Source: Polyangiaceae bacterium (GTDB lineage Bacteria; Myxococcota_A; Polyangia; Polyangiales; Polyangiaceae). From it: a stretch of 43,780 nt of DNA. This document shows positions 37,751 to 43,780 of this stretch, in pieces. The stretch spans positions 1 to 43,780 of the forward strand of contig JAPYTK010000019.1 in the NCBI GenBank assembly GCA_029941785.1, read 5' to 3'. How positions within the stretch are numbered: position 1 is the stretch's first letter; every line of letters begins with the position of its first letter. The notes beneath the pieces are model-generated. The model saw nothing but the letters and a program-made list of their open reading frames with translations, did not search any database and was not told where the DNA came from. The position numbers and the translations under genes are program-made.

Positions 37751-37808
37751 GGTGAGCTTCCTTCTTTTCGCATGTGTGCCTTCTATGTTGCGCCTCCTTC
37801 GCGCAATA

Positions 37809-37830
37809 TTCATTTGTTGATCACAATGAA
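37809..37830. promoter_or_regulatory. Inverted repeat in a divergent promoter region
   Basis: TTCATT (37809-37814) and AATGAA (37825-37830) form perfect 6-bp arms around a 10-base spacer, in an AT-rich part of the gap between the hydroxylase start (37750) and the glycosyltransferase start (37861). The form suits a dimeric repressor or activator site. Confidence 0.35.
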
Positions 37831-37860
37831 CATTCCGAGAAGTTCGCACACCGTAGGGTC

Positions 37861-39087
37861 ATGCGGATCGTATACTTGCACCAGTACTTCGTGACCCCTG
37901 AGATGCCTGGCGGCACCCGCTCCTACGAGATGGCGCGCCGCTTGGTCGAAGCCGGTCACCAAGTCGATCTTCTGACCACCGACCGGGGGGCAAGCGAGTC
38001 GGGGTGGCGTGTGAACGAGCACGCCGGGATCCGCGTCCATTGGGCGGGGATCCCCTACTCGAACCACATGTCTTATGGCAAACGGGTGGGCGCATTCTGC
38101 CGTTTTGCGTGGCACGCCGCACGCCGCGCCATCACCCTCGATGCCGACGTCGTCTTCGCCACCAGCACGCCTCTCACCATCGCCCTACCCGCGGTATACG
38201 CAAGTCGCCGCTTGCGGGTGCCGATGGTCTTCGAGGTGCGCGACTTGTGGCCCGAGGTCCCGATCGCCATCGGCGCACTCGCGAGCCGCAGCAGCATCGC
38301 GGCGGCCCGTCGGCTGGAACGATTCGCCTACGACAACGCCGCCCACATCGTGGCGCTTTCCCCGCAAATGAAAGACGGCGTGGTCGAGGCAGGCGTGGCC
38401 GCCAAGAACGTAACGGTGATCCCCAATAGCTGCGATGCCGACCGTTTCCACGTAGGGCCGCAACCAGGGCAAGCCCTTCGCAAAGAACTGCCGTGGCTCG
38501 GAGATCGCCCGATGATCCTGTACGCAGGCACACTCGGTATCGCCAATGGCGTGGAATACCTCGCGCGTGTCGCTGCCGCCATTCGACCCATGTTGCCCGA
38601 GGCCCGATTCGTCGTCGTCGGCGGAGGCAGGCAGCGGGATCATGTTCGCGCCGTCGCCGCCGATCTCGGCGTTCTCGACGAGACCTTCTTCATGTTCGAC
38701 CAGGTCCCGAAGCGACGGGTGAGCGCCTTCTTTTCCGCCGCGGACATGGCCACCTCGCTGTTCCTCCCCTTGCCGTCGCTATGGAAGAACTCGGCGAACA
38801 AGTTCTTCGATGCCTTGGCCGCCTCGAAGCCCGTCGCGATCAACTACGGCGGATGGCAGGCAAAGGTCCTGGACCAAACCGGTGCCGGCTGTGTGCTCGA
38901 TCCCCATGACACCGGCGCAGCTGCCGCACGGATAGCGAGCGCCCTGCAAGACCAGGCCTGGCTTCGGAATGCTGGCAGCGCCTCACATCGTCTCGGCGCC
39001 GAACGATACGATCGGAACCTCCTCGCAGACAAACTCGAGAATGTGCTCGTACGCGCCGCAGGAGGAGAAAGTCTCATCGCCGCGTGA
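37861..39087 (+). CDS. GT4-family glycosyltransferase, WbuB-like
   Basis: 408 residues from the ATG at 37861 (MRIVYLHQYF). The GT-B fold shows the N-terminal PGGTRSYEMARRLVEAGHQVDLLT, DVVFATSTPLTIALPA and FEVRDLWPEVPIAIG. The C-terminal donor domain shows ILYAGTLGIANGVEYL, RFVVVGGGRQRD, and NSANKFFDALAASKPVAINYGGW. This pattern matches the WbuB/L-fucosamine-transferase-like group used in O-antigen, capsule or exopolysaccharide assembly at the inner membrane. No other polysaccharide genes lie next to it, so it may act alone or on a distant pathway. Donor sugar unknown. Confidence 0.93.
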   Translation: MRIVYLHQYFVTPEMPGGTRSYEMARRLVEAGHQVDLLTTDRGASESGWRVNEHAGIRVHWAGIPYSNHMSYGKRVGAFCRFAWHAARRAITLDADVVFATSTPLTIALPAVYASRRLRVPMVFEVRDLWPEVPIAIGALASRSSIAAARRLERFAYDNAAHIVALSPQMKDGVVEAGVAAKNVTVIPNSCDADRFHVGPQPGQALRKELPWLGDRPMILYAGTLGIANGVEYLARVAAAIRPMLPEARFVVVGGGRQRDHVRAVAADLGVLDETFFMFDQVPKRRVSAFFSAADMATSLFLPLPSLWKNSANKFFDALAASKPVAINYGGWQAKVLDQTGAGCVLDPHDTGAAAARIASALQDQAWLRNAGSASHRLGAERYDRNLLADKLENVLVRAAGGESLIAA

Positions 39088-39374: not shown

Positions 39375-40004
39375 TCACTTGTCGGGTTTGCCATCGCGCT
39401 GACCGGAGTCGAAAAGGACTGCGCCGTAACGCTGCATATGGCGCGGGTGCAGCACATGCTTGGGTCCTTTGCGATTGACCTCAATCCCCATCGACCACGC
39501 CGCCAGCTCGGAGCAATACCAACTGTCGCGCGCCGGCAAGCCGACGACCCCGAGGTAATCGTATTTCTTCCCCATCTGCGCGCGAGCCTTGGCGAGGGCA
39601 ACGCGACCGCGCTCCGGCGTCCAGGTGTTGGGCTGAACCAAGACGAGGCGGTGTGACTCGCGCAAGAACTTGTCGAGTGGAGTTTCAATGACGCCTTTAC
39701 CGATGGCCTCGATGACGGTCTTGCCCTGGAGATCCAAGATGCTGGCGTGCGAGAGTGGTGAGTTCGTGGCCACGGCAATCACATCGTCACCGGTATGGTA
39801 GCCGCGAGTGACGAGCCACATACCGCTGCCCCCGCGCTGCTCGATCATGGCGATCCACGAACGCGTCTCCGCTTCGTACTTGGGCCCGACGCGTCGCTTG
39901 AGCGCTTGCGTTCCGGCACATCCCACCAACGGCACGAACGCCACCAGCAAGCCAAGCGCCCAGAACACCATCGTGGCGTGACCTCGTGTAGGAATGAGTA
40001 TCAT
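39375..40004 (-). CDS. YiiX/YebB-type permuted papain-fold hydrolase, lipoprotein
   Basis: 209 residues from the ATG at 40004; an ATG at 39971 is an alternative. A hydrophobic segment ends in lipobox PLVGC (Cys29). The catalytic fold belongs to the permuted NlpC/P60 group: the first motif is NSPLSHASIL (H86), and the second is SWYCSELAAW (C164). HTGDDVIAV and KYDYLGVVGL are also typical. Members are likely amidases or peptidases acting on cell-wall peptides or lipid-linked substrates. Lipidation places this one on an envelope membrane. It converges on the 59-aa gene with 12 bases between. Confidence 0.87.
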   Translation of the reverse strand: MILIPTRGHATMVFWALGLLVAFVPLVGCAGTQALKRRVGPKYEAETRSWIAMIEQRGGSGMWLVTRGYHTGDDVIAVATNSPLSHASILDLQGKTVIEAIGKGVIETPLDKFLRESHRLVLVQPNTWTPERGRVALAKARAQMGKKYDYLGVVGLPARDSWYCSELAAWSMGIEVNRKGPKHVLHPRHMQRYGAVLFDSGQRDGKPDK

Positions 40005-40211
40005 CGAATCAACCGCGCACGACGAACCGGACAGCGATGGCAGAATCTCGCCCTTGCCGGTTGGCGGGACGTCATTGAATCACGACCCGACCGAGACTTC
40101 GAGGTTTCTCGTGGTCGAACCGCTCGACCGCTGCGCTCGCTGTCACGCCAGAGCACCCACCGGCTATCTCATGGTAAAGGCAAAGCCGTTGCAGCGGTGG
40201 TGGACTTCGTT

Positions 40212-41108
40212 ATGATTCCGACCATGACTTGGCGCCCTAGGCTCCCGCATCTCAGCTTGGTGCTGTCCTCCGCCCTGCTCGCCAGCTGCCTGCTCGACGT
40301 CTCCGGCCAAGCGCTGAGCTCAGCCGGGGCGACAAGTGCTTCAGCCGGCGGTGGGGCCTCCCCGACGGGATCCGGTGGGGAGGGTGGTTCCTCGACGACA
40401 GCCGTCTGCGGAGATGGCGTCGTGCAAGGTCAAGAAGCATGCGACGACGGCAGCGACGTCGATCCCAACGATGGCTGCCATAATTGCACCATCGAGGCGG
40501 GCTACGCATGTGAGGGTCAACCGAGCCAGTGCAAGCCGATCGAGCCCCTCGTCGTGTCGATTGGCCCCAACTTTCACAAGGCCTTCCCGGCCGACGCCTA
40601 CGACGGCTCTCCGACGAGCATGACCTGCGTCAACCTACCCGTGGACGCTTCACCGGGCGCGAAAGTCCGTGCCGTACATATCGAACTCGGTCTGCAGAGC
40701 AACTGGGTCGGCGATCTCGTGATCAAAGCAGTTCACCCCTATCCGCAATACGTGACCCTGCTGAGCCGTCCCGGAATGGTCGAGACCTTCGATGACGGCA
40801 CCGGCGACGACAGCGGCAGCGCCGGCCTCTCCCCGACTTTCCCCATCCGCTTTTACGATCAGGCTGCCCACGATGCTGAGAACATGGCAGCGGGACTCAG
40901 CCAATCGGACACCGTGTGTGAGGACGCGCCCACGAATGGCGAAAAACAATGTGACTTCAGGCCAAATGCAGGGGCAGCTCCGGGCGGCCAACTCGACGAC
41001 TTTGACGGCCTCGACGCCTCAGGGGATTGGCGCATCTGTGTGGCCGACGCCGCAGGAACCAAAGGCGGATACATCGAGTCGGTCACACTGAGCGTAACCG
41101 CTTGGTGA
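40212..41108 (+). CDS. Lipoprotein with DUF4215-like repeat and P-domain-like module
   Basis: 298 residues from the ATG at 40212 (a second Met is at residue 5). A signal peptide ends in LLASC (Cys26). A Gly/Ser-rich spacer follows, then one Cys-rich unit of the myxobacterial DUF4215 type: CGDGVVQGQEACDDG, then NDGCHNCTIEAGYACEGQPSQC. The C-terminal half resembles the proprotein-convertase P domain: VRAVHIELGLQSNWVGDLVIKAVHP, LLSRPGMVETFDDG, and a closing DFDGLDASGDWRICVAD followed by YIESVTLSVT. There is no protease domain, so it is probably a binding or structural surface protein. About 200 bases upstream hold no gene I can support. Confidence 0.85.
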   Translation: MIPTMTWRPRLPHLSLVLSSALLASCLLDVSGQALSSAGATSASAGGGASPTGSGGEGGSSTTAVCGDGVVQGQEACDDGSDVDPNDGCHNCTIEAGYACEGQPSQCKPIEPLVVSIGPNFHKAFPADAYDGSPTSMTCVNLPVDASPGAKVRAVHIELGLQSNWVGDLVIKAVHPYPQYVTLLSRPGMVETFDDGTGDDSGSAGLSPTFPIRFYDQAAHDAENMAAGLSQSDTVCEDAPTNGEKQCDFRPNAGAAPGGQLDDFDGLDASGDWRICVADAAGTKGGYIESVTLSVTAW

Positions 41109-41227: not shown

Positions 41228-41491
41228 ATGCGGCGGCACATGCCATTCATCCTATGCAACCTCCTGGCCGTCCTGGCAGGCCTTTTCGCCTACTTTGTCT
41301 CGCCGGGACCGATGTGGAGCGGCTGGGAAAACATCTTCAAGATGATCGGCAAGGGCGACAACATGCCCATCGCCGGCTTGATCCCACTCATCATCTTCTT
41401 CACCTATCTGTCGCTATCCGAGGCTTTTCGTCACGACCGCCTGCTCCGTCAGGGGCGAGCCGACGAGATCCTCGACGAAATGTACAAGTAG
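41228..41491 (+). CDS. Small two-helix membrane protein
   Basis: 87 residues. The N-terminal helix (FILCNLLAVLAGLFAYFVS) and a second helix (PIAGLIPLIIFFTYLSLS) are separated by a short loop. A charged tail (RHDRLLRQGRADEILDEMY) is probably cytoplasmic. No family recognised. A promoter appears to sit immediately upstream, and the unknown 495-aa gene follows 36 bases after its stop, so the two may be co-transcribed. Confidence 0.75.
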   Translation: MRRHMPFILCNLLAVLAGLFAYFVSPGPMWSGWENIFKMIGKGDNMPIAGLIPLIIFFTYLSLSEAFRHDRLLRQGRADEILDEMYK

Positions 41492-41527
41492 GGCGACGCC
41501 GCGAGCCGACCGCGTTAACACGTTGGA

Positions 41528-43015
41528 GTGGCCACTCCGCACGCCGGTCTTGATCGCGTCGCGCTCAACCAAACGCGGTTGCGCACACCGGGTTTACTAC
41601 TCGATGCAAAAGGTGTCGCGCTCGGAGCGCAGGGGCTCGTTCTCCTGCCAACGCTCGATCGCCTCGTCACGTTGCTCGCCGTCCACACGAGTCACGCCTC
41701 CCTGCAATCTCTGATTGGCACGCTCTCCATTGACATCGTCAAGTCTTCGCTTGGCCACCGGGAGGTGGCCATCCGCTTTGACGCCGACGGAACAGATCGC
41801 ATGGATCAGATCGCGGAGAGCGCCCGTCTGGCGGGAGGGTTCACCTTCACCGGGAGCGGGCGCCATTTCGTGCAGTACCGCGATGCCGGAGCCCCCTTCG
41901 GATATGACGTCCGTCAGATCACGCCCAACGAGGCTCAACTGTCGCTCAGTCATTCGCAGTTCGAACAACAATTCGCGATCGAACGAGCCATCGGCCTAGG
42001 GTCTCTCTTGCTCAAGCTCGAGCCGCGCCTCGCACCCGATTCGGTCGATCGACCGGGCGGGCGCTGGCTTTGCACGGAACGGGGCCTTGGGGCTGCGCTC
42101 ATTCACTACTTCGTCCGTTCGCGGGTCGACGCCGAAGTCGGCGTGGCTCAGTGGCCGCCGGCATCCGCTTTCGATGAACTACCCGTCGAACGTTATTTGT
42201 TTCGGCTCGAAGCGATCCCCGATCGTATGCTTAACATGTTGAGAACGACACCGGGCATCGACATCTACTCCGACGCCGCGCCAGGCTGCGCAGTCGAATT
42301 GGGCTACGAACACCCCGTGAACCTGCGCGCCTGCCCCGTCTTCGACAAGTCGGGACTCGTGCTGCTCCGGGGCCGTGGCACCCCTCCTCTGGTGATGGAC
42401 AAACTGCCTCAACTCGGTGCGGTCGCGGCCTTTGGCGCCGTGAAACTACACGGTCATGAGGCTCATCGAGCAACGAGTGATGGCGTCACCCAGAATGTCC
42501 AGGTGCCGCTCCGGGTGCAAACCGGAACCCGCGCCTGGCGCTCGATCGTCGCGACGCGGATCCGGCGCGAGGAGCTCGGCGTGTTGCGACTCATCGCGTA
42601 CCGGCTCAGCCAATCGCAGCTTCGTCGCACCTTGATCGCTCTGACGTCCCATGGTGCCTTCCTGTTTTCGGAGCAAGGGATCGACTCGGTGCCTATCGGC
42701 GAACTCTTCTCGCGGGTGCACGAGCACGTTTTCGTCAGCGCCGGTCATCGTGTGGTGCCCGATGTCGCTCCCGACGTCCTGTTCGCAGCGCTCGGCTCGC
42801 CGGCAAACGAGTTCGTGTTCATCGACCGTGAAGGTCAGAGAATTGGGGTCGACAAAGAGAGCTTCGTGACGCTCGAGCAAGCCCTACTGAGCGCAGAGAA
42901 GTGGCAACACACCACAGCCGAGCAAGTCGCGCGCGTCGTCTCCACACAACTTCCGACCTTGCAGCTCGAGTCGGTTGGGCTGCGTCCTATGCAGGACCTG
43001 GAGAGCCTCGAGTAG
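41528..43015 (+). CDS. Unknown 495-aa protein, first of an unrecognised pair
   Basis: GTG start at 41528; GGAG lies too close to it to be a good ribosome site, so the start is uncertain. No signal peptide or membrane helix. It looks like a mixed alpha/beta soluble protein. Notable stretches are TPGLLLDAKGVALGAQGLVLLPTLDRL near the N-terminus, RMLNMLRTTPGIDIYSDAAPGCAVELGYEHPVNLRACP near 230-270, and repeated LPQLG/VAAFGAVKL elements. The segment near 330-390 (RSIVATRIRREELGVLRLIAYRL) is basic and helical. I do not recognise the family. It could be one of the core proteins of the MoxR-vWA-beta-propeller ternary systems that myxobacteria often carry, but this is a guess. The next gene starts one base after its stop. 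Confidence 0.8.
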   Translation: MATPHAGLDRVALNQTRLRTPGLLLDAKGVALGAQGLVLLPTLDRLVTLLAVHTSHASLQSLIGTLSIDIVKSSLGHREVAIRFDADGTDRMDQIAESARLAGGFTFTGSGRHFVQYRDAGAPFGYDVRQITPNEAQLSLSHSQFEQQFAIERAIGLGSLLLKLEPRLAPDSVDRPGGRWLCTERGLGAALIHYFVRSRVDAEVGVAQWPPASAFDELPVERYLFRLEAIPDRMLNMLRTTPGIDIYSDAAPGCAVELGYEHPVNLRACPVFDKSGLVLLRGRGTPPLVMDKLPQLGAVAAFGAVKLHGHEAHRATSDGVTQNVQVPLRVQTGTRAWRSIVATRIRREELGVLRLIAYRLSQSQLRRTLIALTSHGAFLFSEQGIDSVPIGELFSRVHEHVFVSAGHRVVPDVAPDVLFAALGSPANEFVFIDREGQRIGVDKESFVTLEQALLSAEKWQHTTAEQVARVVSTQLPTLQLESVGLRPMQDLESLE

Positions 43016-43780
43016 TGGACCTTGGACAACGCGCAGAACGCCTTGCAACGGAGTTGATTGCGCCGCTGCTCACCGGCGGAACCGTCAAGCTGCAATACCC
43101 TTTCGGCAGTGCACTGTGCGGGCAGCTCGGTCCTCATCGGCAGATCGTCGATGCGGAACTTCGCCACACGGTCGCCGAGGCCCGCCTCCAAGCGGCCCGC
43201 AAACTCTTGCCGACCGACAGCCTCCCGGAGCTTGGCGCCGCAGAGTGGACGCTGGCCGCAGCGCTCAACGATTTGCTGCAAATCACAAATCACGAACTGT
43301 CGGGCTTCGCTACGCGAGGCTATCACGAGGAGTTGGGTGCTCAGATCCGCCACGTCGCCAAGAACGTGTCTCCGGTCAGCAACCTAGGAGAAGCGATCGC
43401 TCGGTACGCGACGTTCAGCCGCGTATTCGAGCTCGTGCGACACGACACGACGGTCTCGTGGTGGACCGGTCATAAGCAATTCCGCGGTCAGCCGGCCTCG
43501 AGACGCCTGCTGTTGTGGAAAAACGTCCTCAACCTGACCACGGTAAAAGTTCAGGTCGATTTTCAGAGCTTGGTGAACGACCTTCCTTATGTCGACGGGC
43601 AGCTGTACTCCGATGCGGCCGGCTGCTGGATCGGCTGTTCGCCCCTCACCGACCTCGCGAACGCCCACCGTGCCCTGCCCGCTTTCGTTTGGACACCGGC
43701 CGCCATCAGCGTCATTGCCACCCTTGATGGTCACAATCTTGCTCTGCGGGCAATCCAACACGACGCGACCAACATCCGGG
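43016..43780 (+). CDS. Unknown protein, second of the pair (3' end cut by window edge)
   Basis: At least 255 residues from a GTG at 43016, directly after the TAG of the preceding gene; GGAG lies inside the end of that gene. The frame is open to the window edge. The N-terminal 110 residues contain a helical segment (AAEWTLAAALNDLLQITNHEL). Later comes a Trp-rich region (TVSWWTGHKQFRGQP, RRLLLWKNVLNL) and ALPAFVWTPAAISVIAT. No family recognised. The tight junction says it works with the 495-aa protein. Confidence 0.75.

Follow-up and report, generated by a model that had tools for sequence, protein, structure and literature searches.

ORF2 and ORF3 of Polyangiaceae and related myxobacteria as probable subunits of a MoxR AAA+/vWA remodelling machine

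Three adjoining genes at a Polyangiaceae contig end

The stretch of DNA analysed in this study (the window, 43,780 nucleotides) is the entire contig G000:C19 of a Polyangiaceae genome, G000, that consists of 6.03 Mb in 415 contigs. At its right end, three genes follow each other in one direction, as the first-pass annotation had placed them, and the lengths it gave (87, 495 and 255+ aa) were confirmed:

ORF1, 41228..41491, + strand: 87 aa, two predicted membrane stretches (hydropathy)
ORF2, 41528..43015, + strand: 495 aa, soluble, GTG start, predicted ferredoxin-like domains
ORF3, 43015..43780, + strand: 255 codons in the window, open at the contig end

The hydrophobic stretches of ORF1 span approximately residues 3-30 and 45-67, and 36 bases separate ORF1 from ORF2, as first read. 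The gap of 0 bases that had been given for ORF2 and ORF3 has to be amended, as ORF3 most likely starts with the GTG at 43015 and overlaps by 1 base with the TAG stop codon of ORF2 at 43013-43015 (TAGTG). In all three genes alike, GC content peaks at codon position 3 and reaches its minimum at position 2. ORF3 is truncated because the edge of the window is the end of the assembled contig; ORF3 proteins in relatives are mostly ~285-390 aa, and no further piece encoding the missing C-terminus was detected elsewhere in the G000 genome.

ORF1 is an accessory of local occurrence, recovered by tblastn (E<=2.7e-18) in loci of only four other genomes (G005, G026, G043, and G069), some of these loci being counted among the named copies described below as well, and it lies upstream of ORF2 every time. 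The observation of adjoining genes is not due to chance, since homologues of ORF2 occur in 115 of 193 relatives and ORF3 is recognised directly 3' of ORF2 in 74 of 80 named loci (in three of the six loci without a recognised ORF3, namely, L106, L149, and L165, the sequence stops at ORF2 or shortly after it). None of the three window proteins has a match in NCBIfam. Further to the left, the window encodes a YaeF/YiiX-type permuted papain-like amidase (39378-40004, - strand; Peptidase_C92, 1.5e-8), which is flanked by genes for a glycosyltransferase (37774-39087) and a DUF4215 protein (39795-41108).

The occurrence of ORF2 is centred on a single class. Among 377 genomes sampled over the phylum, 78 contain an ORF2 homologue, of which 71 belong to the class of the window, five are strong matches (E<1e-80) in two other families, and two are weak. 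When the window protein alone was used as the query, no relative was found among the named genomes; a profile search with the family alignment found 93, of which 80 named loci were kept. Almost all of these are labelled myxobacterial or deltaproteobacterial, and they include Minicystis rosea, Sorangium, Polyangium, Labilithrix, Byssovorax, and Sandaracinaceae.

ORF2 and ORF3 head a five-gene set that is split in Polyangiaceae

In Sandaracinaceae-like relatives, ORF2 and ORF3 are the first two genes of a contiguous set of five, followed by genes for a MoxR AAA+ ATPase, a vWA protein, and a protein with TPR/HEAT repeats. The MoxR gene is on the same locus as ORF2 in 23 of the 80 named loci, in 15 of which the vWA gene is present too, and the complete same-strand order ORF2-ORF3-MoxR-vWA-TPR/HEAT is found in 12. 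No shared family was seen for the variable gene between MoxR and vWA in L158, L163, L164, and L171, which was rejected as a conserved component, and a 577-aa protein from the MoxR-vWA interval has no Pfam match.

In Polyangiaceae, the family of the window, the set is split and the ORF2-ORF3 pair stands alone. The expectation that MoxR and vWA genes would be found downstream of the pair thus holds in other families, where they come directly after ORF3, but not, as far as the contig can be read, in G000, where the partners are on two other contigs: the MoxR domain is encoded at C54:16937-17554, and adjacent genes for the vWA and TPR/HEAT proteins are located at C80:7863-11131. Around the MoxR gene on C54 are what we take, from reading the translations, to be rsuA-, lepA- and rhamnose-type genes. 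In closed genomes, members of the set are megabases apart, e.g., G041 carries MoxR at 2.2 Mb, ORF2 at 4.0 Mb, and vWA at 14.8 Mb, and in G022 the vWA gene (11.4 Mb) is parted even from the TPR/HEAT gene (1.1 Mb). In G057 (C1:4725178-4726643), ORF2 is present as two adjoining reading frames, owing either to a genuine split of the gene or to a frameshift.

This scattering allows for the reading that ORF2 and ORF3 form an independent two-gene unit, and that their link to MoxR and vWA is an inherited neighbourhood which has no function in Polyangiaceae. Such a reading agrees with the flanks examined of 55 named loci (L096-L150), in which no MoxR or vWA gene was found, and with 25 Polyangiaceae loci in which neither ORF2 nor ORF3 lies beside the vWA gene. 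We consider it improbable, however, as the separated genes still co-occur, go missing together in several lineages, and have evolved at distances that match beyond those of a housekeeping marker, as described in the following section.

The separated genes are inherited together

The first-pass annotation had proposed phyletic profiling of the pair, which was carried out here and indicated that the MoxR, vWA, and TPR/HEAT proteins all track ORF2. The vWA protein is present in 28 of 28 genomes with ORF2 and in none of seven without (35 tested), and the same numbers were obtained for the TPR/HEAT protein with the same seven ORF2-less genomes. A bpMoxR match at E<=1e-40, which paralogues can also pass, was found in 29/29 ORF2-bearing and 0/7 ORF2-less genomes (36 tested), with the clade checked by tree for 13 genomes and nine named loci. 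Of all 193 relatives, 184 are concordant for ORF2 and vWA, with both genes in 112 and neither in 72. Three genomes have only ORF2 (G033, G127, and G155) and six have only vWA (G063, G082, G113, G137, G161, and G163). Five of the latter six are <90% complete; the three ORF2-only genomes are all 94-96% complete, so that not all nine discordant genomes are easily put down to gaps.

On a LepA tree of 40 genomes (25 with and 15 without ORF2 and vWA; G002 and G029, for which the best LepA match is 55-56% identical and likely a paralogue, and G024, which has no match, are omitted), presence and absence amount to six changes, at least five of which are forced by well-supported branches. MoxR and TPR/HEAT were tested in seven of the 15 set-less genomes on this tree, and these seven occupy four separate places. 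The outgroups possess the set, which makes repeated joint loss the simple interpretation; a history of loss followed by a single regain in one clade agrees with the tree equally well, the number of changes giving no direction. The set is dispensable, because it is missing from several separate lineages, which would fit a function in defence or social behaviour too.

Tree distances among ORF2, vWA, and MoxR are correlated (rho 0.88, 0.92, and 0.97), more closely than with LepA (0.75-0.78). Within Polyangiaceae, partial correlations on LepA gave a rho of 0.54 for ORF2-vWA (16 genomes; 0 of 2000 permutations as high), 0.64 for ORF2-MoxR (11 genomes; 6 of 2000), and 0.82 for vWA-MoxR (11 genomes; 0 of 2000). 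The genes of the set, although now unlinked, keep matched distances beyond the housekeeping marker LepA.

Kinship and predicted folds of ORF2 and ORF3

The first-pass annotation recognised no family in either protein, which stands when the sequences of the window themselves are judged at curated cut-offs, but not for ORF2 as a family. The Pfam domain bpX2 was matched at E<=1 by 23 of 27 ORF2 homologues (best 5.8e-6), and the window ORF2 scores 0.14, under the cut-off; fvmX7 was matched by 12 of 27 (best 5.9e-12), with no match for the window ORF2 itself. An alignment of the ORF2 profile with the fvmX7 protein of G057 by hhalign covered 106 columns (E 3e-6, probability 88%). By these profile comparisons, ORF2 is probably a distant relative of the fvmX7/bpX2 domains of MoxR-vWA ternary systems. 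The AlphaFold2 model of ORF2 (pLDDT 81.7, pTM 0.57) is predicted to contain at least two ferredoxin-like units, and its last ~35 residues are of low confidence; a fold search matched only common ferredoxin/ACT/PII-like arrangements (Z<=6.4).

For ORF3, the model of the L096 homologue, derived from a 56-row alignment, is of high confidence (mean pLDDT 96.1, pTM 0.92) and is all-alpha, apart from one long beta-hairpin that bears the conserved stretch R-x-D-T...W-W-x-G...P-P-x-R-L. It has no match in the PDB at E<=0.001, and the best fold match, VIA (Z 7.0, rmsd 8.4 over 143 residues), was taken as chance. One of the 56 ORF3 members matches fvmX1 (E 3.8e-5) and a short S-P-L-T motif aligns between the two families, while hhalign assigned probabilities of 3% and 1%; kinship of ORF3 with fvmX1 is thereby possible, yet unproven. 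Profile searches of PDB sequences with ORF2 and ORF3 gave no meaningful match, and neither predicted structure points to an enzyme. The profile and structure comparisons that had been suggested earlier have hence connected ORF2 with fvmX7/bpX2, but gave no convincing solved relative for ORF3, and the fold searches gave no function for either.

The partners resemble MoxR-vWA ternary systems, with a MoxR clade of their own

The MoxR of G000 matches PF20030 (bpMoxR) with an E-value of 1.2e-78 and 263-264 bits against a cut-off of 27, and comparable matches were obtained in L046 (3.8e-73) and L043 (7.1e-74), although this profile also scores other MoxR proteins over its cut-off, as seen in 12 of 14 control genomes. 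All 22 MoxR rows that were aligned (13 genomes and nine named loci, two genomes being in both) have the P-loop GPPGTAKS, which fits the GxxxTAKS form common to the beta-propeller and FtsH types (PMC7159879 section 22). In a tree built without the distant MoxRs of G000, these 22 rows form a single clade (support 100/100), apart from an FtsH-type row and from seven rows of the beta-propeller type (100/99), for two of which bpX5/bpX6 were verified. The start of the vWA MIDAS motif is intact in 18 of 18 proteins (DASASM in 17, DATASM in one). Similarity of the vWA protein to ivWA remains under the cut-off throughout, i.e., 1e-5 in L043, 9.6e-4 in L045, 0.024 in L050, 0.094 in G000, where it is the only match, and none in L051; in the same five cases, Pfam found no C-terminal beta-propeller on the vWA protein. 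The fifth protein has HEAT repeats by Pfam. No AAA protein other than MoxR was present among the scanned cluster proteins of L043, L045, L046, L050, and L051.

Three kinds of known MoxR-vWA systems were compared with the set, namely, I) the FtsH ternary systems (vWA-MoxR subsystem 3, Kaur et al. 2020, PMC7159879), II) the MoxR-vWA-beta-propeller systems (subsystem 4, Kaur et al. 2020), and III) RavA-ViaA and other MoxR-vWA pairs. With the FtsH ternary systems, whose fvmX7 is probably a distant homologue of ORF2, the set has in common a GxxxTAKS MoxR, a divergent vWA protein with weak ivWA similarity, a TPR partner, and helical accessory proteins. Unlike them, it was seen without a tandem FtsH AAA protein, fvmX2, ubiquitin-like conjugation, or a caspase effector; its MoxR is a separate clade, and it is single-copy across a class, whereas fvmX1 occurs in 2 of 282 genomes of the phylum. 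With the beta-propeller systems, it shares bpMoxR, the P-loop variant, and perhaps the bpX2-like stretch of ORF2, but its vWA protein carries no propeller, and bpX5/bpX6 are missing. In the RavA-ViaA-type chaperone pairs (named in PMC7159879 section 8), as in the set, an AAA+ MoxR is combined with a vWA co-chaperone that has an intact metal site. In known pairs, the vWA protein captures a peptide, and the MoxR ring uses ATP to refold or release it (PMC7159879 section 8); peptide capture and ATP-driven remodelling are likely common to both. The set differs in being split in Polyangiaceae and in having three more dedicated subunits, of which two have no relatives whose function is known.

It could be argued that the window shows an ordinary beta-propeller or FtsH ternary system that is partly hidden by the contig end, as bpMoxR and the sub-threshold bpX2/fvmX7 matches might suggest. 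This is highly improbable and already contradicted by intact clusters in relatives, closed genomes included, in which no propeller or FtsH was found among the scanned proteins. True examples of both systems are, moreover, different loci in sister genomes. L186 (G057:C1:8868000-8887900) is a complete-looking FtsH ternary system with fvmX7, fvmX2, MoxR, an FtsH-type AAA protein, and fvmX1, in a genome that carries the five-gene set as well. L187 and L191 are beta-propeller-type loci separate from the set, with a distinct MoxR clade, and encode MoxR, bpX5, an unrecognised protein of 608 or 648 aa, and bpX6. The link to MoxR-vWA-beta-propeller systems that was hypothesised in the first pass therefore survives as kinship (bpX2/fvmX7, bpMoxR, and vWA) but not as the exact system, given the missing propeller and bpX5/bpX6 loci that are separate paralogues. 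The bpX6 protein of L191 also matches PP2C/SpoIIE phosphatases. At a locus in a further genome, L188 (G200:C103:175000-194900), MoxR and TPR are encoded together with an fvmX1 protein, an ORF2-like protein, and a WD40 propeller protein that weakly matches the vWA profile; this locus may connect the classes in evolution.

A kinase-FGE protein upstream of vWA and the case for a conflict function

In G000 (C80, L189:5765-7834), a 689-aa protein in which a Ser/Thr kinase is joined to an FGE-sulfatase-type (formylglycine-generating-enzyme-like) domain is encoded 5 bases upstream of the vWA gene. Such a kinase-FGE gene accompanies the vWA gene in 8 of 25 Polyangiaceae loci: it lies <=43 bases upstream in G000, G001, G021, G048, G078, and G093, and ~0.6-0.7 kb upstream, with another reading frame in between, in G005 and G016 (domains assigned by Pfam for G000; G001 passes E<=0.01 for FGE alone). 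The kinase matches many PADLOC kinase models (PD-T4-6 and others), which is generic for kinases. A role as sensors or effectors in MoxR-vWA systems has been described for lectin-fold domains of the FGE type (PMC7159879 section 18; PMC10907252), and the kinase-FGE (C-type-lectin-fold) protein may provide an input to the vWA protein in part of the Polyangiaceae. A 1,320-aa kinase with an AAA_16 domain is encoded divergently upstream of ORF2 (L100:3704-7663, - strand) and its family, c2, is found in 22 of the 80 named loci; it was rejected as a member of the set and assigned to the neighbourhood, being limited to part of the Polyangiaceae and transcribed away.

Mainly on the basis of sequence, MoxR-vWA ternary systems have been proposed to act in biological conflict and to be tied to multicellularity. 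The set might likewise be an anti-phage or self-limiting system as described by Kaur et al., in which MoxR-vWA thresholding would free an effector encoded elsewhere, with the kinase-FGE protein or ORF1 as sensor or effector. In favour of this are the relatedness of ORF2 and MoxR to the FtsH/beta-propeller ternary systems, the position of the kinase-FGE gene, the membrane peptide adjoining ORF2, and the scattered absences on the LepA tree. Against this, the set is single-copy and vertical over a class, no conserved effector was found in or near the cluster, and PADLOC-DB 2.0.0 has no model for the five core proteins at E<=0.001 (MoxR matches mad8 at 0.0027-0.0076). A conflict system is, on balance, unlikely, while keeping appreciable weight.

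Discussion

Taken together, it is probable, as judged from gene content and sequence kinship, that ORF2 and ORF3 belong, as dedicated subunits, to a MoxR AAA+/vWA remodelling machine in a class including Polyangiaceae and Sandaracinaceae, and that this machine serves a conserved cell function. The best reading of the set is that of a vertically inherited, single-copy, effector-less relative of the MoxR-vWA ternary systems, acting as a remodelling chaperone. In such a machine, the MoxR ring and its vWA partner would spend ATP on loading, unloading, or refolding a client, while the TPR/HEAT protein would be the scaffold that holds the complex. ORF2 and ORF3 would form a subcomplex that presents the client or is itself the client, i.e., they would be adaptors or client-like subunits, which we infer from the overlap of their genes and from their travelling together. 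The machine would then serve assembly, quality control, or signalling as a conserved function of the cell and would not be a mobile weapon, as the set is single-copy, vertically inherited, and effector-less. On the sequence evidence, a core function is favoured over a conflict response, for which the dispensability of the set leaves room.

A more far-reaching proposal, put forward tentatively and with slightly less than even confidence, is that the set constitutes a fifth class of MoxR-vWA ternary-type machine, effector-free and placed in the core biology of one myxobacterial class. It would comprise five co-inherited subunits, with ORF2 and ORF3 as new families, of which ORF3 has a confidently predicted fold but no convincing solved relative, and with a kinase-lectin sensor in some Polyangiaceae. 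The set was not found described in the open-licence literature, although the source-data tables of PMC7159879 may list it.

If this holds true, a stable, single-copy, effector-less member would offer a clean case for examining the shared machine in isolation from toxic effectors. It would also point to one of two histories of the machinery, either domestication from the conflict versions or a position ancestral to them. Two unannotated families, ORF2 and ORF3, would in addition gain a context that is linked to function.
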